From assembly GCF_030680395.1 (NCBI RefSeq), contig NZ_JAUXVR010000014.1:1-64000 (forward strand): DNA of 64,000 nt. The letters are read 5' to 3'. Within the stretch, counting starts at the first letter, position 1. Every line of letters starts with the position of its first letter. The notes under the pieces are model-generated. The model had not been told where the DNA came from and did not search any database. It worked only from the letters and a program-made list of their open reading frames with translations. Shown here piece after piece: positions 39,914 through 50,923 of this stretch. The translations under genes and the position numbers were made by a program. Source of the stretch: Methylobacter sp. (lineage in GTDB: Bacteria; Pseudomonadota; Gammaproteobacteria; Methylococcales; Methylomonadaceae).

Positions 39914-39990
39914 CATGAGCGATTTTCGCACCCCCACCCATTTGGAATGCTCAACTGCGGTTTTTAGATCAACATGAGGTCTTGTACAAG

Positions 39991-40884
39991 ATGATAAGTA
40001 ATAAAGAAATCGCTGCAAAACTGCTCCAAATCGCCGACTTACTGGATGAGCAAAGAGCCAATCCTTTCCGGGTCAGCGCCTATCAGAATGCCGCCAAGAC
40101 CATCGAAACCATGAACGAAGCGGTCGAGGATTTACTGAGGCGCGAGGGTTTTTCGGCGTTGCTGGAACTGCCCGGAATCGGCGAAGGCATTGCCAGATCC
40201 ATTAACGAATATGTGATGACCGGACGCATGAGTCGTTTGGAAAGCTTGCAGTCAGGGCATGATCCCATCGCATTATTCGAACAGATACCGGGCATCGGCC
40301 CCAAGTCGGCGCACCGCATCATTGAAACGCTGCATATCGACACCCTGGAAGCCCTGGAACTGGCAGCGCACAACGGTCGCTTAAAAAAAGTACCCGGCTT
40401 CAGCGCCAAAAAAATCGCCCTGGTGCAAACCTGGCTTGCCCATGTCCTGGGTTATCGCAGGCCGCGTTTCGAACCGCAGCAAACCATAGCAGAGCCACCG
40501 GTCGCATTATTGTTGGAAATAGACGAACAGTACCGCAAAAAAGCGCACGCCGGAGAGCTGCCAACCATAGCGCCGAAACGCTTCAACCCGACTGGCGAAG
40601 CCTGGCTGCCCATCTTGCATGCGAGCCGGAAGGATTGGCACTTTACCGCGTTATATTCGAATACCGAGCGCGCTCACCAGCTGGATCGCGTCAAAGACTG
40701 GGTGGTGATTTATTTTTACGATGATAGTCACCACGAGGGCCAGCACACCGTTGTCACCGAAACGCGAGGCCCTGCAACCGGCCAGCGGGTGGTTCGGGGC
40801 CGCGAAAAAGAATGCAGCGAATATTACGCGGAACATGCGGCAAAAGGCGATGCCTCAAGGAGAGGTTCTAGCCACAGTAGTTAA
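39991..40884 (+). CDS. PolX-like helix-hairpin-helix DNA-binding protein without polymerase domain
   Basis: About 297 residues. The first about 160 residues match the N-terminal 8-kDa and HhH part of family X DNA polymerases: an NKEIAAKLLQIADLL start, then two HhH hairpins (ELPGIGEGIA and QIPGIGPKSA) and a third in VPGFSAKK. The nucleotidyltransferase palm (GS, DxD) and PHP domain are absent. The C-terminal about 120 residues look like a compact domain with WHFTALYSNTERAH. It could bind gaps or nicks in DNA; any catalysis is unknown. An in-frame TTG at 39982 is the alternative start. Confidence 0.75.
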   Translation: MISNKEIAAKLLQIADLLDEQRANPFRVSAYQNAAKTIETMNEAVEDLLRREGFSALLELPGIGEGIARSINEYVMTGRMSRLESLQSGHDPIALFEQIPGIGPKSAHRIIETLHIDTLEALELAAHNGRLKKVPGFSAKKIALVQTWLAHVLGYRRPRFEPQQTIAEPPVALLLEIDEQYRKKAHAGELPTIAPKRFNPTGEAWLPILHASRKDWHFTALYSNTERAHQLDRVKDWVVIYFYDDSHHEGQHTVVTETRGPATGQRVVRGREKECSEYYAEHAAKGDASRRGSSHSS

Positions 40885-41038: not shown

Positions 41039-41449
41039 ATGGAATCCCAAAGAACTCAAGCCGAAGAATCAGAAGACCGTATTGAAGAAACAAAAAAACG
41101 GACTACACAAGCAAAAGCCAGGGCCAAAGAAGCAATAGCACGAACTGAAGAATCAAAGGCGCTAACTGAAGAGTTAAAAGCAAATATTGAGGAATCAAAA
41201 GCACTAACTAACGAATCGGAAGCTCGAACTGAACAATCAGAAATACGTTCTGAGCAATCAAGGGTGCTAACTGAGGAGTCAATAAAACGAAATGGAGAAT
41301 TAAAAGCACAAACAGAACAAGCAATGGCACGCATTGAAGAGTCAGCAACAAAGATTGAATTATCAAAAGCTCGAATTGAAGCGTCAATGAAACGAGCTGA
41401 AGAGTCAAAAACACGAATGGAAGAATCAAAAGATCCAACTGAATATTAA
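41039..41449 (+). CDS. Low-complexity heptad-repeat protein
   Basis: 136 residues, almost all Glu, Ala, Arg, Lys, Ser and Thr, in about 17 units of seven residues such as EESKALT, EELKANI, EQSEIRS and ELSKARI. The 21-base DNA units are diverged, so the repeat is old or under protein-level selection. The pattern gives an extended charged helix or coiled coil; similar linkers occur between sensor and kinase domains in histidine kinases, but no such domain is attached. No signal or membrane segment. Whether it is made is uncertain; no strong ribosome-binding site. Confidence 0.5.
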   Translation: MESQRTQAEESEDRIEETKKRTTQAKARAKEAIARTEESKALTEELKANIEESKALTNESEARTEQSEIRSEQSRVLTEESIKRNGELKAQTEQAMARIEESATKIELSKARIEASMKRAEESKTRMEESKDPTEY

Positions 41450-41574: not shown

Positions 41575-43524
41575 ATGACCCATTCAGCGCCACTCCCGTT
41601 ATTGCCCTATTGCCCTACTAGCCTCGCCGAGCAACTACTGAGCGGCGAGCAAAGGATTTTACTGTTTGGCGAGACCGGTATCGGCAAATCCACGCTGACC
41701 GCCGAACTCGCGCGGATATTTTCCGAAAAAGGCCTAGCCTGCTTCTGCATCGCCGCCGATCCCGGATCGCCCGGCTTCGGTTTGCCCGGCACCGTATCGC
41801 TGGGACAGTGGCGGAAGTCCGGCTGGCAAGTGTCGGCATTTGAAGCGCTTTGCACGCTGGATGCAGGCCGTTTTCGCCTGCCGCTGCTGTCGGCTGTCAG
41901 CCGGTTAATGCAAAAGGCTCCCTTTGACTTGATGCTGATCGACGCCCCCGGCGTGGTCCGGGGCATTGCGGGTTCGGAATTGCTGACCGGCATGGTCGAG
42001 CTGTTGAAAATCGATACCGTGTTGGTGCTGAACCGCCAGTCGAAACCGCTGCCGTTAATGATCGAGCTGTTGTCGTTGGGCGTCCGCATCCTGCCGGTGC
42101 ATGCCCATCCTGAGGCCTGCCGTCCCGGCCAAAAGACCAGGGCGCACAAAAGAACCGGACAATGGCGGACTTACCTCGCCGTCAGCGACGAGATAACGCT
42201 CGATCTTGCCGATCTTCGCTTGGTCGGCTCGCCGCCGCCCATCGATGTGCCGGATGCCTGGACCGGCCGCCAATGCGCTTTTATCGATACCGAGCGAACC
42301 GTCAGCATCGGCGAAATCATCGCGCTGCAAAACGGCAAACTTCATATCCGGCTGCCTGCGGCAGCGGCAACGACCCGGACATTGCTGGTGCGCGATGCCC
42401 GTTGCGAAAAAAACGGCCTGCTGGTCAGCGCCGCGCCGTTTGCAAGCGGTAACCTGCAATTTTTGCCGCCGCCCGACGCGATGCCCTACCCGACGACGGA
42501 TTACAGCGGCGGACCCAGGCCTGCGGTCAAATTACGCGGCATGTACGCGACGATGGTCAACGGCGTGTTCGGCGACCCGCTGCTGCATCTTCGCCTGCAC
42601 CAGCAGCAACGCAGTCTGCTGTTCGACCTGGGCGACTCGGGCAGATTGTCCACCCGCATAGCCCATCAAGTCAGCGATGTGTTCATCAGCCATGCCCATA
42701 TCGATCATATCGGCGGCTTCTTGTGGCTGCTGCGCTCCCGTGTCGGCGATTTTCCAAGCTGCCGGATTTTCGGCCCGCCGGGTTTGATCGGCCATATTAA
42801 AGGCATGATCGACGGCGTCCTTTGGGACCGCATCGGGGATACCGGGCCGCGTTTCGAAATCGCCGAAATTCACGGCAACCGGCTGCAACGGGCAAGTATT
42901 AAGACGGGCTGCGGGGATTGCGTCGCTCTTCCCGAAATTCAGTTTGCCGAAGGATTGATCGTGGACGATCTGCAGTTCACTGTCCGCACGATCACGCTAG
43001 ATCACCACACGCCGGTGCAGGCCTATGCCTTCGAGAGCAAGGCCAAATTCAACGTCGATAATAATGTTCTTAAAACCTTGGGATTAGATGCCGGGCCCTG
43101 GCTGAACAAGCTGAAGCGGGTCATCGGCGCAGGCGATACTGCAGCTATGATCCGGCTGCCCGATAATAGCAGCCGGGAGGCGGGAGAACTGGGCGCCCTC
43201 CTCCTTACCGTCACGCCCGGCGAAAAACTGGTCTATGCAACCGATCTGGCCGAGACAAAAGCCAACCGCGCCGCACTGACCGCGTTGGCGCACAAGGCCG
43301 ACTTCTTTTTCTGCGAAGCTTCTTTTCTGGAAGACGACATCGACCAGGCACGGAGAACCGGCCATCTGACCGCGCGGGCCTGCGGCGAGATTGCAACCGC
43401 CGCCGATGTCAAACAACTGGTGCCGTTTCATTTCTCCAGGCGTTACGAAACAAGGCCTGAAGAGATTTACCTGGAATTAAGCGCCGCCTGTTCCCGCATC
43501 GTCATACCTACGAAAAGTCAGTAA
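41575..43524 (+). CDS. Clp1/Grc3-like polynucleotide kinase domain fused to RNase Z-type MBL domain
   Basis: 649 residues, two parts. Residues about 20-290 resemble Clp1/Grc3 RNA 5'-kinases: Walker A GETGIGKST (32-40), the clasp region DPGSPGFGLPGTVSLG (62-77), IDAPGVVRG (122-130) where Clp1 has NTCGWVKG, and an Arg-rich lid (RPGQKTRAHKR, 183-193). Residues about 320-645 are an MBL domain of RNase Z type: HAHIDH (373-378), His477/478, Asp557, GHLTA at 596-600 and FHFSRRY (618-624). One chain could cut RNA and phosphorylate an RNA end. Substrate and biological role unknown. Stands alone after the heptad-repeat gene. Confidence 0.8.
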   Translation: MTHSAPLPLLPYCPTSLAEQLLSGEQRILLFGETGIGKSTLTAELARIFSEKGLACFCIAADPGSPGFGLPGTVSLGQWRKSGWQVSAFEALCTLDAGRFRLPLLSAVSRLMQKAPFDLMLIDAPGVVRGIAGSELLTGMVELLKIDTVLVLNRQSKPLPLMIELLSLGVRILPVHAHPEACRPGQKTRAHKRTGQWRTYLAVSDEITLDLADLRLVGSPPPIDVPDAWTGRQCAFIDTERTVSIGEIIALQNGKLHIRLPAAAATTRTLLVRDARCEKNGLLVSAAPFASGNLQFLPPPDAMPYPTTDYSGGPRPAVKLRGMYATMVNGVFGDPLLHLRLHQQQRSLLFDLGDSGRLSTRIAHQVSDVFISHAHIDHIGGFLWLLRSRVGDFPSCRIFGPPGLIGHIKGMIDGVLWDRIGDTGPRFEIAEIHGNRLQRASIKTGCGDCVALPEIQFAEGLIVDDLQFTVRTITLDHHTPVQAYAFESKAKFNVDNNVLKTLGLDAGPWLNKLKRVIGAGDTAAMIRLPDNSSREAGELGALLLTVTPGEKLVYATDLAETKANRAALTALAHKADFFFCEASFLEDDIDQARRTGHLTARACGEIATAADVKQLVPFHFSRRYETRPEEIYLELSAACSRIVIPTKSQ

Positions 43525-44291: not shown

Positions 44292-46129
<1,838 letters not shown>

Positions 46130-46131
46130 TC

Positions 46132-46392
46132 ATGAGCAATCGAAAACAACTTAAAGACAAAATTGAAAACCAGATCAAACGCATCAAAAAAGCGGAACAC
46201 GATCAGGGCCCGAACCTGCCCTCTATCGGCACCTTGGGCTTGGTCATGATATTGCCTATCATCGCCGGCGTTTATTTAGGCCACTGGCTGGACGATAGGT
46301 TGGAAGGTTATTCGACGCACTGGACACTCAGTTTATTGTTCGCAGGCATAGTGATTGGGGTTTTTAATGTGTATTTTCTGATTAAGGATTAG
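46132..46392 (+). CDS. atpQ: AtpQ-like membrane protein (AtpI/AtpZ family)
   Basis: 86 residues with two transmembrane segments: about residues 30-50 with GVYLGHWLDDRL behind, and about 61-83. The GxxLGxxLD pattern is that of AtpI/AtpZ-like proteins, called AtpQ in N-ATPase operons. Starts two bases after the atpC stop. Probably helps in Fo assembly or ion transport. The usual next gene, atpR, is not between it and atpB. Confidence 0.8.
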   Translation: MSNRKQLKDKIENQIKRIKKAEHDQGPNLPSIGTLGLVMILPIIAGVYLGHWLDDRLEGYSTHWTLSLLFAGIVIGVFNVYFLIKD

Positions 46393-46400
46393 GCTAAATC

Positions 46401-47066
46401 ATGGAAAACGAATTTGTCTTTTCTATCGGACCGGTAGTGATAGCCACAGCCGTCATCACTACGTGGGGCATCATGTTGGTCATTAGCGTAATAGCCTGGC
46501 TTACAACACGCCATTTGGAGATGCTGCCGGGTAAGTTGCAGACCACTGTCGAAGGCATTGTGGCGGCTATTGATGAGGCCATTAGCGCTGTCGCACCTGA
46601 ACACGGACGACTCATCCTGCCTTTTATTGCGACCCTTTGGCTGTTCCTGATCATTGCCAACCTGATCGGTTTAATACCCGGCTTGCATTCGCCGACCCGC
46701 GATCTTTCAGTGACCTCGGCACTGGCAATACTGGTGTTCTTTTCGGTGCACTGGTTTGGCATAAAAACCCAGGGCCTGAAAAATTACCTGCACCATTACT
46801 TAAGCCCCAGCCCGATTTTGCTGCCTTTTCATATTATCAGCGAATTGACCCGCACCTTGGCGCTGGCTATCCGTTTATTCGGCAATATAATGAGTCTGGA
46901 AATGGCGGCTATGCTGGTATTGCTGGTGGCAGGGTTTCTCGCCCCTATTCCGATTTTAATGCTGCATATCATTGAAGCGCTGGTACAGGCTTATATCTTC
47001 GGTATGCTGGCGCTGATCTATGTGGCCGGAGCCATACAGTCCCAACACCTTAACCCACCGGAGTAA
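46401..47066 (+). CDS. atpB: N-type ATP synthase, subunit a
   Basis: 221-residue Fo stator channel subunit with about five to six membrane segments. The essential Arg is in LALAIRLFGNIMS. Eight bases separate it from the preceding gene. Together with the c ring it forms the ion path. Length is shorter than the main E. coli subunit a (271) but usual for N-type. Confidence 0.9.
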   Translation: MENEFVFSIGPVVIATAVITTWGIMLVISVIAWLTTRHLEMLPGKLQTTVEGIVAAIDEAISAVAPEHGRLILPFIATLWLFLIIANLIGLIPGLHSPTRDLSVTSALAILVFFSVHWFGIKTQGLKNYLHHYLSPSPILLPFHIISELTRTLALAIRLFGNIMSLEMAAMLVLLVAGFLAPIPILMLHIIEALVQAYIFGMLALIYVAGAIQSQHLNPPE

Positions 47067-47069
47067 CTT

Positions 47070-47336
47070 ATGTCAGACATAGCCTCGATTGTCCTTGGAT
47101 CCAGCATCGCCGCGATTATCGGCATCGCGTTGGGGGTGATGATTCCTGCTCTGGCCATGGGCAAAGCCATCGGCAGCGCCTTGGAAGCCTTATCGCGGCA
47201 GCCGGAGTCGGAGCGGTCGATTATGCGCACCTTGTTTATCGGCCTGGCGATGATCGAATCGCTGGCTATCTATTGCCTGGTTATTATTTTGATTGTGCTG
47301 TTTCGAAATCCGCTGCTTGAATACGTTCTTAAATGA
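47070..47336 (+). CDS. atpE: N-type ATP synthase, subunit c (atypical ion site)
   Basis: 88 residues, two transmembrane helices joined by the polar loop RQPE (43-46). The ion-binding Glu63 and the neighbours Ser64 and Tyr68 in IESLAIY match Na+-type c subunits. In the first helix, the position that carries Gln in Ilyobacter (Q32) or Glu in typical N-ATPases is Met30 (PALAMGKA). So the Na+ ligand set looks incomplete; protons may be the coupling ion. Starts three bases after atpB. Confidence 0.9.
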   Translation: MSDIASIVLGSSIAAIIGIALGVMIPALAMGKAIGSALEALSRQPESERSIMRTLFIGLAMIESLAIYCLVIILIVLFRNPLLEYVLK

Positions 47337-47378
47337 TTGGAAAAGAACTCACCACGAAGACACGAAGAGCACGAAGAT

Positions 47379-47750
47379 ATGGAATTTGACGATTTATTAA
47401 GGCGTGTCATTGGCTGTGCGATTGAAGTCCATAAATTTTTGGGAGCTGGGTTACTGGAATCCACTTATGAAAAATTTTTAGAGCATGAACTTCATCTAGC
47501 AGGTCTTTCTTATACAGTGCAACAACAATTGCCTGTTAACTATAAGGGGGTTGAGCTGGATTGTGGGTATCGGCTCGATCTGGTGGTGGAAAATAAACTG
47601 ATTGTGGAATTAAAAAGTGTCGAGAAATTGCAAAAAATTCATGAAGCACAAATACTTACTTACATGAAACTGACTGGCTTAAACGTAGGATTACTAATCA
47701 ACTTTAATGAGACCCTCTTGAAAAATGGTATCAAGCGTTTTGTACTTTAA
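47379..47750 (+). CDS. GxxExxY family protein (PD-(D/E)XK nuclease-like)
   Basis: 123 residues from ATG 47379. GLLESTY gives the family name motif, and LDCGYRLDLVVENK with VELKSVE matches a PD-(D/E)XK nuclease active site. The family is scattered among bacteria; its role is unknown to me. The frame extends upstream to TTG 47337, but that part is only the translation of the DNA repeat (SPRRHEEHED), so ATG 47379 is more likely. It has no relation to ATP synthase and splits atpE from atpF. Confidence 0.82.
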   Translation: MEFDDLLRRVIGCAIEVHKFLGAGLLESTYEKFLEHELHLAGLSYTVQQQLPVNYKGVELDCGYRLDLVVENKLIVELKSVEKLQKIHEAQILTYMKLTGLNVGLLINFNETLLKNGIKRFVL

Positions 47751-47763
47751 GACTTTGAAAGAA

Positions 47764-47834
47764 GTCACCACGAAGGCACGAAGATTTGATAATTTGCTCT
47801 AAAACTTCGTGTTCTTCGTGCCTTCGTGGTGAAT
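47764..47834. repeat. Dispersed repeat family A, copy 3
   Basis: TCACCACGAAGGCACGAAG at 47765-47783 and its reverse complement at about 47805-47834 (with GTTCTTCGTGCCTTCGTGGTG), with a 20-base centre. It lies 14 bases after the GxxExxY stop and 38 bases before the atpF start, so it is transcribed within the operon and would fold in the mRNA. Confidence 0.85.
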
Positions 47835-47872
47835 AATTTTTTTATCAAACACTTAAACCGGCAATAAAGCAT

Positions 47873-48622
47873 ATGGAATTCAACCTATCCACTTTTGTTT
47901 TTGAAATCATCAATTTCCTGATTCTGATCTGGATCTTGCAGCGGCTTTTTTACAAGCCTTTGCTGGAAGTGATTGCCAAGCGCAAGCGGTTTATAGATCA
48001 ATCGCTTAGTGAGGCTAAAAACCTGAAACTACAGGCAGAACAACAATGTAGCCTTTATGAAAACCGGCAAAAATTGTGGGACCAGGAAAAACAATCCGCT
48101 ATAACCGCCCTGCACCGGCAACTCGAAGCCGAAAGAAAAGCCCATCTGGAAAAGCTGAATGCCGACCTTGAGCAAGAACGGCAAAAAGCAAATGTGTTAC
48201 TGTTGAAACAGCAACGGGAGTTGCAACAACAATCCGAAAAACAGGCCTTGCTCAACGGCGCCAAATTTGCAGGAATGCTGTTGCAACAGTCCGCCGGACC
48301 TGAACTGGAAGCCCGTTTATTTACTATGCTGATGGACAATCTGGTCACCTTACCGGAAGCCTGCAAGCTGTGTCTGACCATGTTCGGAACGAAGAAATCG
48401 GTGCCGGTCAAAATAACCAGCGCCTATCCGCTACCCGTAGAAATGCGCCTGCAACTGGAACAAAAGCTGGATGCGTTAATCAACAGTCAAATCAATTTTC
48501 AATATCATCAGAATAACGCGTTGATTGCCGGTCTGCGTATGGACATCGGCGCTTGGGTGTTAAACGCCAACCTGCAACATGAACTGATCGGTTTTACCGA
48601 GATTGGCTATGAGTCTGATTAA
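47873..48622 (+). CDS. atpF: N-type ATP synthase, subunit b fused to delta-like domain
   Basis: 249 residues, against about 156 for an ordinary b. The N-terminus has one membrane helix ([14 protein letters not shown]), then a long coiled stalk to about residue 135. The last about 110 residues look like the delta subunit ([26 protein letters not shown]). A separate atpH is absent from the operon, as is usual for N-ATPases. ATG lies 122 bases after the GxxExxY stop, behind a palindrome. Confidence 0.88.
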
Positions 48623-50102
48623 ACCCGCACCCAACAGCTTGCTGGATAAACAGGCCGAGTGGCTGGCTGACTATCAGCCGGGGCTGCGTATTAGCGAACA
48701 AGGCACAGTAGTTTCAATCGGTGACGGCATTAGCTGGATCAAAGGCTTGCCCTCGGCGGCCATCGAAGACATTCTGGTTTTTGCCGATGGCAGTCGCGGC
48801 ATGGTCTTCGACCTTAACCGCGACCGAATCGGCGCAATTTTGCTGTATGAAACTGAAGCCCTGACGGCGGGCACCCGGGTTCATCTTTCCCGGCATTCGC
48901 TGAGCATACCGGTCGGCAACGATTTTTTAGGCCGGGTTATCGACCCATTAGGAGCACCGTTGGACGGACAAACAGCTCCATCTCACGCAGGGCGTGAAAG
49001 TATGGAAAAAAGCTCGCCCACCATTATTGCCCGCGATTTTGTCCATAAACCGCTCTATAGCGGCATAAAAATTATCGACACCCTGATTCCGATCGGCAAA
49101 GGGCAGCGGCAATTGATTGTGGGCGATGAAGGCCTGGGCAGAACGTCAATCGCCATTGACACCGTCATTAATCAAAAAGGCAAAAATGTGCTGTGTATTT
49201 ATGTGCTGATCGGCCAGAAACGCTCTGCCGTAGTCAGTACCCTGGAAACCCTGAAGAAGCATGGCGCGCTGGACTACACCGTGTGCGTGGTTGCCGAAGC
49301 CAGCGCCCTGCCCGGCTTGCAGTATATCGCCCCGTTTGCCGGTTGCGCAGTGGCCGAATACTGGATGGCGCAAGGCCGTGATACTTTGATTATCTATGAT
49401 GACCTGTCCACCCACGCCAGAACTTATCGGGAGCTATCTTTGTTACTGCGCAGGCCGCCCGGACGCGAAGCCTATCCGGGCGATATTTTCTTTGTTCATT
49501 CGCGCCTGCTGGAACGCTCGACTTGCCTGAATGCCGAAAACGGCGGCGGCAGCATGACCGCCTTGCCGATCATCGAAACCAAACAGGGGGAAATTGCCTC
49601 CTATATTCCGACCAACCTGATTTCCATTACCGACGGGCAAATCTATCTGGATAATGACTTGTTCGTGTCGGGATTTCGCCCGGCCATCGATATTACGCGT
49701 TCGGTATCGCGGATAGGCGGCAAAGCGCAGGACATGAGTATCCGCGACCAAGCCGGACAAATGAAACTGGATTACCTGCAATTTCTGGAGCTGGAAGCGT
49801 TTACTCGTTTCGGTCAACGCCTGGAAGCGTCAATGGAAGCGCGAATCAAACGGGGACGGCTGTTACGGGAAATATTAAAGCAGGACCGGTTGGTTCCGCA
49901 CAGCAATCTTTTTCAATTGGCCTGGCTGACTGCGTTTAATGCAGGACTGTTTAACCAGGCAGTTCCTGAAGATATTCCAAAGCTGCTGATTAACATTGAT
50001 AACGGCATTAAAACCACGTCGCTGAAATTGGAAAGCAGCCCCGAGCAATGGCAATTAGCCGTCGGCGAATGGCTTAATACGAACCCCGCACAATCGTTAT
50101 GA
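48609..50102 (+). CDS. atpA: N-type ATP synthase, alpha subunit (divergent P-loop)
   Basis: 497 residues. It aligns along its whole length with alpha subunits: [10 protein letters not shown], then [18 protein letters not shown]-like, and [30 protein letters not shown]. The P-loop is GDEGLGRTS, where ordinary alpha has GDRQTGKTA, so the Lys is Arg and the Gln-Thr is changed. The alpha site is non-catalytic, but nucleotide binding and regulation may differ. ATG 48609 overlaps the end of atpF by 14 bases. Confidence 0.9.
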
Positions 50103-50923
50103 GCCTAAGCCGCGAACTGCAACTGCATATCACTCAATTGAAGGAGATACGCAGCATTCTGAATTCCATGAAAATTCTGGCTTTCATGGAAACGCATAAA
50201 CTACAGCGCTTTAAGACCATGCAAAGTCAGGTGGTGGCTAATATTGAACGCGCGGCTTTGGATTTACTGGATTTTTATCCCGGCCTGGCAACGTCAGACC
50301 ACAACGTTGCGCAACTTTGCATTTTGCTGGGTGCGGAACGCGGTTTTTGCGGCGATTTTAACGAAAGCCTGATTAATGCCGTCGCAACCCAGGCTTATAC
50401 CGGCATTATTGCAATCGGCAGCCGACTGTGTAACCGACTGGAAAACGTAACGACCAAGGTCATCGCGACCCTCGAAGGCGCGAATGCCGCCGAAGAAGTG
50501 CCTACGATCATTAACCGTCTGATTGACACCATCAGCGCATTACACGGTGAATCTACCCCTACATTACAGCTGACCGTTGTTTATCACGATAACGCATCCA
50601 ATCAAATCCGCCAACGGCAGGTGTTCCCTCCTTTTACTCAACCAAGTGAGAGAACCTTTCATTATGGCAGTCCGCCCATGCTCAACCTGGAACCCGGCGA
50701 GTTTTTTGCAGACTTGATCGATCATTATTTATTTGCGGTATTGCATGAAGTTTTTTATCTCTCGCTGATGGCCGAAAACAATAGCCGCCTGCAACATCTG
50801 GATGGCGCTGTAAATCACCTGGACGATGAAACCGTAAAGCTGCAAAGAAAATCCCAGATTTATCGCCAGGAGGAAATTACCGAAGAGATTGAAGTCATAT
50901 TGTTAAATGCGGAGAATTTGTAG
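50099..50923 (+). CDS. atpG: N-type ATP synthase, gamma subunit
   Basis: 274-residue rotor shaft of F1. The start overlaps the atpA stop (ATGA, 50099-50102). The N-terminal helix [18 protein letters not shown] and the conserved ERGFCGDFN are seen; the C-terminal helix carries [12 protein letters not shown] and [17 protein letters not shown]. Last gene of the operon. Sequence is more divergent than for the main gamma, as usual in N-ATPases. Confidence 0.9.

Follow-up and report, generated by a model that had tools for sequence, protein, structure and literature searches.

A Clp1-type kinase-like domain fused to an RNase Z-type nuclease domain in Methylobacter and its co-occurrence with archease-type RtcB

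Analysis of a 64,000-nucleotide stretch of Methylobacter sp. DNA (contig NZ_JAUXVR010000014.1, positions 1 to 64,000; the window) revealed a single open reading frame on the forward strand that begins with ATG, is free of internal stops, and encodes a protein of 649 amino acids (Table 1). The source genome comprises 4.36 Mb in 49 contigs, and M. tundripaludum SV96 carries a copy at 94% identity. The first-pass annotation had placed a Clp1-type P-loop and an RNase Z-like metallo-beta-lactamase (MBL) domain in this one chain. A Pfam scan confirmed this arrangement, as both CLP1_P (4.6e-14; 53.1 bits, cut-off 26.6) and Lactamase_B_2 (9e-14; 52 bits, cut-off 27) were matched above cut-off in the intact frame. 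The motif residues that it had named, K38, HAHIDH (373 to 378), D557, GHLTA (596 to 600), and FHFSRRY (618 to 624), were all located. In comparisons of the fusion gene with six relatives, simple Nei-Gojobori estimates of dN/dS were 0.22 to 0.46 for the kinase half and 0.15 to 0.25 for the nuclease half, and in each of the six full-length comparisons the value was higher for the kinase half. Relative to these genes, purifying selection acts on both halves. Together with the occurrence of the architecture in 28 genomes, this result indicates that the fusion is not a chance product. An AlphaFold prediction of the full fusion protein from a four-row alignment gave a pLDDT of 34.6 and a pTM of 0.28.

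Table 1. Positions in the window of the fusion gene and of its domains and motifs
Feature	Position	Strand	Basis
Clp1-like kinase / RNase Z-like fusion gene, 649 aa	41575..43524	+	ORF, profile matches, 28 full-length copies
Clp1-type P-loop kinase core, residues ~24-205	41644..42189	+	Pfam CLP1_P; hhalign to standalone bacterial Clp1
Walker A GETGIGKS, residues 32-39	41668..41691	+	G32, G35, G37, K38 invariant in 19 aligned fusions
Walker B segment DPGSPGFGLPG, residues 62-72	41758..41790	+	D62-P-G invariant; Gln of Clp1 DxxQ replaced
Clasp position DAPGVVRG, residues 123-130, without TxGW	41941..41964	+	alignments including standalone Clp1
Lid, residues 189-198	42139..42168	+	R189, R193, T194, W197 invariant
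Clp1-type C-terminal region, residues ~206-297	42190..42465	+	hhalign reaches kinase-profile column 264/308
RNase Z-type metallo-beta-lactamase domain, residues ~323-645	42541..43509	+	PRK02126, 267 bits; PDB RNase Z, ELAC1
Metal motif HAHIDH, residues 373-378	42691..42708	+	H373, H375, D377, H378 invariant
Metal ligand H477	43003..43005	+	invariant
Region matching RNase Z flexible arm (exosite)	43027..43209	+	1y44 alignment; invariant G507, W509, L513, K514
Metal ligand D557	43243..43245	+	invariant
H597 of GHLTA	43363..43365	+	invariant; aligned with a 1y44 His
Metal ligand H619	43429..43431	+	invariant

Just upstream of the fusion gene (41039-41449, +) lies an open reading frame of 136 amino acids with repeated short E/S/K/A/T-rich units, which possibly forms a coiled coil. 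The gene at 39982-40884 (+) encodes an HHH-domain protein similar to the N-terminal portion of PolX-type polymerases; among 20 other fusion neighbourhoods, homologues of this protein lie near the fusion in L106 and L113. A PD-(D/E)XK-type gene (PF13366, 1.1e-42) is located at 47337-47750 (+) within what we take to be an N-type Na+-ATPase operon (44319-50923). A survey of the 20 fusion neighbourhoods and the window, in which several stretches were short contigs and the fusion was lost to longer frames in L103 and L105, revealed no recurrent neighbour; the commonest other cluster occurred in 4 of 21. A conserved operon partner was thus rejected.

The kinase half was compared by hhalign with nine standalone bacterial Clp1 proteins, which gave a probability of 99.1 over 245 columns with the C-terminal region included. 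Searching the Protein Data Bank (PDB) with these nine proteins (E <=0.001) returned eight distinct sequences, all of them Clp1, Nol9, Grc3, or "CLP1_P domain-containing" entries. The proposed Clp1-type identity of the N-terminal half is borne out by these results, which make it homologous lengthwise to the Clp1/Grc3/Nol9 kinases. The direct PDB comparison is weak on its own owing to the short CLPF-1 stretch, the higher rank of midasin, and the restriction of most other chains to the P-loop. With the fusion profile, Caenorhabditis elegans CLPF-1 was matched over profile positions 16-200 (6.6e-7), and midasin scored above it with an alignment limited to ~36 positions around Walker A. The kinase-only profile gave a shorter best stretch for CLPF-1 (positions 14-72, 5.6e-8), midasin ranked above CLPF-1 through repeated P-loops, and most other chains among the matches listed aligned around the P-loop only. 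A PADLOC scan yielded just one weak match, likewise around the P-loop (E 0.0099), and a role of the fusion in a defence system was rejected.

Alignment of 19 fusions revealed invariant residues in the kinase half: G32, G35, G37, K38, D62, R99, R101, D123, P125, G126, R129, R189, R193, T194, and W197. The Walker A pattern GxxxxGK[ST] is present as GETGIGKS. According to parts of a survey of Clp1 proteins (PMC6777427), the Walker B glutamine (DxxQ) and a TxGW clasp are signatures of this family. Instead of the Walker B pattern [DE]hhQ, the 28 fusions retain the aspartate and have S, N, T, M, or L in place of the glutamine. Instead of the clasp pattern [TSL]xGW, they have DxPG[VLM], and the nine standalone bacterial relatives have TxG[LI]; the latter keep the Walker B glutamine and lack the clasp tryptophan in 9/9 cases. 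The DPG...GLPGT element, originally labelled the clasp, is the Walker B segment, and alignment with standalone Clp1 places the clasp position at D123-A-P-G-V. The Arg-rich lid that had been predicted was found, with R189 and R193. In the Methylobacter protein, R193-TGQW-R198 fits the lid pattern RxxxxR, yet position 198 is variable in the fusions, where R189 and R193 (RxxxR) form the invariant pair, as in the standalone Clp1 proteins. Walker A, the Walker B aspartate, and the lid arginines are thus invariant and the glutamine and TxGW are replaced, so that, judged by these motifs, the kinase half is a diverged Clp1 relative with a retained ATP site and substrate-side motifs of its own.

The fusion resembles bacterial Clp1, as far as Ts-Clp1 of Thermus scotoductus is described in parts of PMC6777427 and as seen in the standalone genes studied here, in Walker A and the Walker B aspartate. 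With bacterial Clp1, including the standalone genes, it further shares the two lid arginines and the C-terminal region. It differs in being attached to a nuclease, in the change of DxxQ to DPG[SNTML] and in that of TxG to PG, and, relative to the standalone proteins, in the replacement of the GxVxPxxH segment by LDAGRFRL or a close form. Since the TxGW clasp and the Walker B glutamine are absent, the kinase substrate may be other than 5'-OH RNA.

In the nuclease half, NCBIfam PRK02126/NF002558 ("ribonuclease Z") was by far the top-scoring family (1.9e-79, 267 bits, residues 323-644), below its cut-off of 315 bits. The RNase Z equivalog TIGR02651 gave 107.7 bits against a cut-off of 292.95. Analysis of PDB revealed RNase Z chains 1y44 (9.7e-23) and 2cbn (9.3e-19) and ELAC1 (7.6e-18) as the best matches, together with 2fk6; 1y44, 2fk6, and 2cbn are RNase Z from Bacillus subtilis and Escherichia coli. 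HxHxDH and the remaining metal ligands are invariant in the 19 rows (H373, H375, D377, H378, H477, D557, and H619), which, with the PDB matches, substantiates the RNase Z-like MBL identity claimed initially; H597 is invariant as well. In the pair His477/478 given by the first-pass annotation, H477 is invariant in the aligned fusions and H478 varies. The arm between the third histidine and the aspartate (GPW..LK), the exosite arm, aligns with the RNase Z chain 1y44.

To the tRNA genes of the source genome there were 45 matches in all, and 34 distinct genes were read from 30 loci. CCA is encoded at the end of 33 of these 34 genes, and the remaining gene is truncated where its contig stops; it is therefore not obvious that the fusion serves as a housekeeping tRNase Z. 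No TIGR02651 match over the cut-off was found in any of 28 genomes tested, with the fusion present or absent, so replacement of a lost rnz gene in carriers only was rejected; in the control genomes, the cut-off was exceeded in 9 of 14. Weaker TIGR02651 matches were found in 27 of the 28 genomes, including a second MBL gene in the source genome (contig C42, 51.6 bits).

These data bear on an explanation in which the protein acts mainly as RNase Z and the P-loop domain, having lost Clp1 kinase activity, serves as a regulatory NTPase or an RNA-binding switch. The replacement of TxGW and of the Walker B glutamine in 28/28 fusions and the higher dN/dS of the kinase half in every full-length comparison are in line with it. 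The invariance of Walker A, the Walker B aspartate, and the two lid arginines speaks against it, the clasp tryptophan is absent from the standalone bacterial Clp1 proteins as well, and the encoded CCA ends leave the need for a housekeeping RNase Z not obvious. We consider this explanation unlikely.

The search for the same fusion in other genomes, which had been proposed as a check, returned 28 distinct full-length copies, from Gammaproteobacteria and one lineage outside that class. In the genus sample, any match was found in 8 of 23 genomes and a full-length fusion in 5; in the order sample, 35 of 201 genomes matched any part and 11 carried the full-length fusion. The class sample (369 genomes) gave matches in 37, with 14 full-length copies and, at contig ends or close to them, three partial ones. 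Two of the partial copies (G547 and G570) group with the fusions in the tree described below, and the third (G321) was assigned by similarity and position only, outside the tree. The phylum sample (349 genomes) added two copies outside the class, with one copy split across two contigs, and a PF16575 family search added one further fusion (G232). Identity among the 19 aligned fusions goes down to 46%. Within the genus the gene is patchy, with truncated copies in two genomes and a match of 24 residues in another. The truncated copies stop after residue 224 (G005, locus L007; dN/dS 0.56) and residue 217 (G013, locus L008; dN/dS 0.72). With these values, they were read as recent truncations and rejected as functional kinase-only genes. 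In G013, the truncated end is followed by an apparent remnant of an M28 peptidase gene, which in the window lies upstream.

A tree of the nuclease domain was built from 65 rows, of which 30 are fusion rows (the 28 full-length copies and two contig-edge rows) and 35 are standalone. Fusion and standalone rows were split with a support of 100/100, and this split was recovered in 100% of 200 bootstrap trees. The tree is unrooted, so that either side could be the older one. The position of all fused nuclease domains on one side of this branch makes a single fusion event the simplest reading and, as far as the tree can tell, a likely one. PRK02126 is the nearest NCBIfam family of the fusion nuclease, and the four standalone relatives scanned pass its cut-off with 384 to 462 bits; the fusion scores below this cut-off and occupies its own side of the branch. 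No fusion was found in 72,556 plasmid records (23 matched, in the nuclease half only) or in 50,697 phage records (3 matched, again in the nuclease half only), and mobile-element carriage of the fusion was rejected. A scan of viral contigs (query A1) revealed no relatives.

To study co-occurrence with the RNA ligase RtcB, the same 369 genomes of Gammaproteobacteria were scanned (E <=1e-30). RtcB was matched in 123 genomes, and 72 of these have a long type (>=540 bits); the other matches are shorter or contig-cut, and a few of them may be of the long type. Archease adjoins the long-type RtcB in 30 of the 30 best-scoring loci. Genomes with the fusion (17, of which three hold partial copies) and genomes with the standalone nuclease (17) were defined as carriers; a match under ~60 bits, as in G590, G529, and the decayed G421, placed a genome among the non-carriers. 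PRK02126-type genes, fused or standalone, co-occur with archease-type RtcB: long RtcB was found in 26 of 34 carriers and in 46 of 335 other genomes (Fisher p 3e-14; this and the following p values are uncorrected for phylogeny beyond even sampling). The association was seen for full-length and contig-edge fusions together (12/17 versus 60/352, p 3.7e-6), for full-length fusions alone (10/14 versus 62/355, p 2.4e-5), and for the standalone nuclease (14/17 versus 58/352, p 1.6e-8). In the control, genomes with other RtcB matches only made up 4 of 34 carriers and 47 of 335 non-carriers (p 0.72). Genome size was controlled only through this comparison. In the family of the source genome, long RtcB occurs in 11 of 12 fusion genomes and in 4 of 20 non-fusion genomes (p 1e-4), the latter being the first listed among the non-matches of the order sample.

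Eight of the 34 carriers are without long RtcB and 46 of the 335 non-carriers have it, so neither gene requires the other. Among the eight are G449, in which RtcB is split over two contigs and may be of the long type, and two genomes that are 75% and 78% complete (G594 and G569). Non-carriers with long RtcB also occur in at least six carrier families (f43, f44, f89, f90, f135, and f160), and part of the association may therefore be lineage-level. The co-occurrence hints that the fusion and RtcB share an RNA-repair pathway.

Physical linkage to RtcB is weaker than co-occurrence. In the source genome, the fusion lies on contig C34 and RtcB on contigs C1 and C18; in G311, 11 kb separate fusion and rtcB, and G421 holds a decayed remnant of the fusion kinase at a distance of ~1.1 kb from archease-rtcB, with both on one strand. 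In one genus (g32), the standalone nuclease gene lies within ~2-4 kb of archease and rtcB at 8 of 9 loci, the ninth being contig-cut. This linkage counts as one observation, as it comes from a single genus. Between the nuclease gene and archease-rtcB stand a gene for a calcineurin-like phosphoesterase and one on the opposite strand, and the cluster was rejected as an operon because the latter intervenes in all 8 loci (L191 to L193, L242 to L244, L246, and L247). The conserved g32 cluster of phosphoesterase, opposite-strand gene (CarS-like by eye), archease, and rtcB has the same four members in G025 (L237). In several genomes, a DUF72 gene (PF01904) is found near archease-type rtcB (L198 to L201, L203, L207, L208, and L240).

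Strong standalone Clp1 genes (>100 bits) were found in four genomes of the class sample (G430, G590, G380, and G494). A standalone PRK02126-type gene is present in three of these four and in 14 of the 365 others (Fisher p 3e-4), and in G430 the two genes adjoin on the same strand (L114, 1420-2358 and 2438-3493). Genus g32 has standalone Clp1 in five genomes (114-122 bits), four of which carry the standalone nuclease. Among the nuclease-only genomes, 14 of 17 in the class sample are without strong standalone Clp1, and no Clp1 match was found in any of 14 others of the order tested, five of them from g32. These counts speak against a tight bond between Clp1 and the nuclease.

The same data were weighed against the idea that the substrate of the kinase half is something other than RNA and that the link to RtcB reflects merely shared lineages. 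The long-RtcB non-carriers in at least six carrier families, a test that ignores phylogeny, and the motifs of the fused kinase that replace those of Clp1 (LDAGRFRL-like, DxPGVVRG-like) are compatible with this. On the other hand, the other RtcB matches are unassociated in the same genomes, and standalone Clp1 and nuclease occur together (3/4 versus 14/365) and are adjacent in G430. We regard this as the least probable of the explanations considered here.

RNase Z yields products with 3'-OH and 5'-phosphate ends. The first-pass annotation had suggested that the enzyme could cut an RNA and phosphorylate the new or another 5'-OH. Phosphorylation of the new end is unlikely because RNase Z should leave a 5'-phosphate there; the part that stands is another end, which the kinase should use. 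RtcB, as described in passages of PMC3973293, joins 2',3'-cyclic phosphate or 3'-phosphate to 5'-OH, and excerpts of PMC13247085 and PMC8935212 describe how phosphorylation by CLP1 takes away the substrate of RTCB. Both putative activities of the fusion would thus give ends that RtcB cannot use, and an editor or antagonist of RtcB on tRNA-like substrates is favoured. We tentatively propose, at somewhat less than an even chance, that the fusion combines two activities on RNA ends and works with the archease-RtcB ligation pathway as a counter-ligase or end editor. This proposal draws on the homology of both halves, their invariant catalytic residues, the purifying selection on each, and the co-occurrence and linkage with archease-RtcB; the kinase and nuclease activities, the tRNA substrates, and the direction of the effect on RtcB are inferred. 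The N-terminal domain would be a diverged Clp1-type, ATP-using 5'-OH RNA kinase, and the C-terminal domain a 3' endonuclease of RNase Z type that would recognise tRNA or tRNA-like acceptor ends. The fusion would convert 5'-OH to 5'-phosphate and leave 3'-OH, neither of which RtcB could join. It might in this way sort broken or mis-joined tRNA pieces into those repaired and those trimmed and passed to decay. Broken tRNAs trigger bacterial rtc operons, though of the rtcBA kind, according to parts of PMC7790460.

A single chain with two putative end-directed activities also resembles T4 Pnkp and bacterial Pnkp/Hen1, in that one polypeptide could act on either end at an RNA break. By analogy, the kinase would heal 5'-OH ends, the RNase Z-like domain would clear 2',3'-cyclic phosphate or damaged 3' nucleotides, and a classical 5'-P/3'-OH ligase would then seal. 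The two halves would in this case treat both ends made by metal-independent RNases, and ELAC1, a relative of RNase Z, reportedly repairs cleaved tRNAs. The 3'-end domain is unrelated to those of T4 Pnkp and Pnkp/Hen1, and the ligase that co-occurs with the fusion is RtcB, which joins unhealed ends directly. Such a healing role is quite improbable, and the counter-ligase or end-editor reading is preferred.

Las1-Grc3 combines a nuclease with a kinase of the Clp1 family; the nuclease, Las1, is of the HEPN type and leaves 5'-OH. The nuclease of the fusion differs in being of RNase Z type and joined to the kinase in one chain. The metazoan tRNA processing set offers a further parallel, as the CLP1, RTCB, archease, and RNase Z families are found together, and CLP1 competes with RTCB there. 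Two of these four proteins form one polypeptide in the fusion. A metazoan-like end-decision for tRNA in some bacteria can be envisaged, in which archease-RtcB would seal broken or spliced tRNAs and the fusion or its unfused parts would compete by 5'-OH phosphorylation and 3' recutting. We rate this wider scheme as rather doubtful.

No description of such a fusion was found in the literature by titles and the first lines of abstracts, and an earlier mention is possible. The main text of the Clp1 survey (PMC6777427) does not mention RNase Z, ribonuclease Z, metallo, lactamase, fusion, or fused. The initial rating of a bacterial Clp1-type/RNase Z fusion as noteworthy is upheld. By comparison of its copies, the fusion is widespread, probably of one origin, and has two Clp1 signature features replaced.

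If the metazoan-like scheme is true, the fusion would be, to our knowledge, the first case in bacteria of one polypeptide that antagonises or edits RtcB ligation. It has yet to be explained why animals retain a Clp1 kinase by which RtcB ligation is blocked, and the roles of CLP1 in splicing are still poorly understood, according to parts of PMC13247085. A chain of a kinase-like domain and RNase Z in bacteria prone to carry archease-RtcB would offer a small, genetically simple test system. It would also point to what might be done by a "ribonuclease Z" subfamily whose presence as a housekeeping enzyme is puzzling where the tRNA genes encode CCA.
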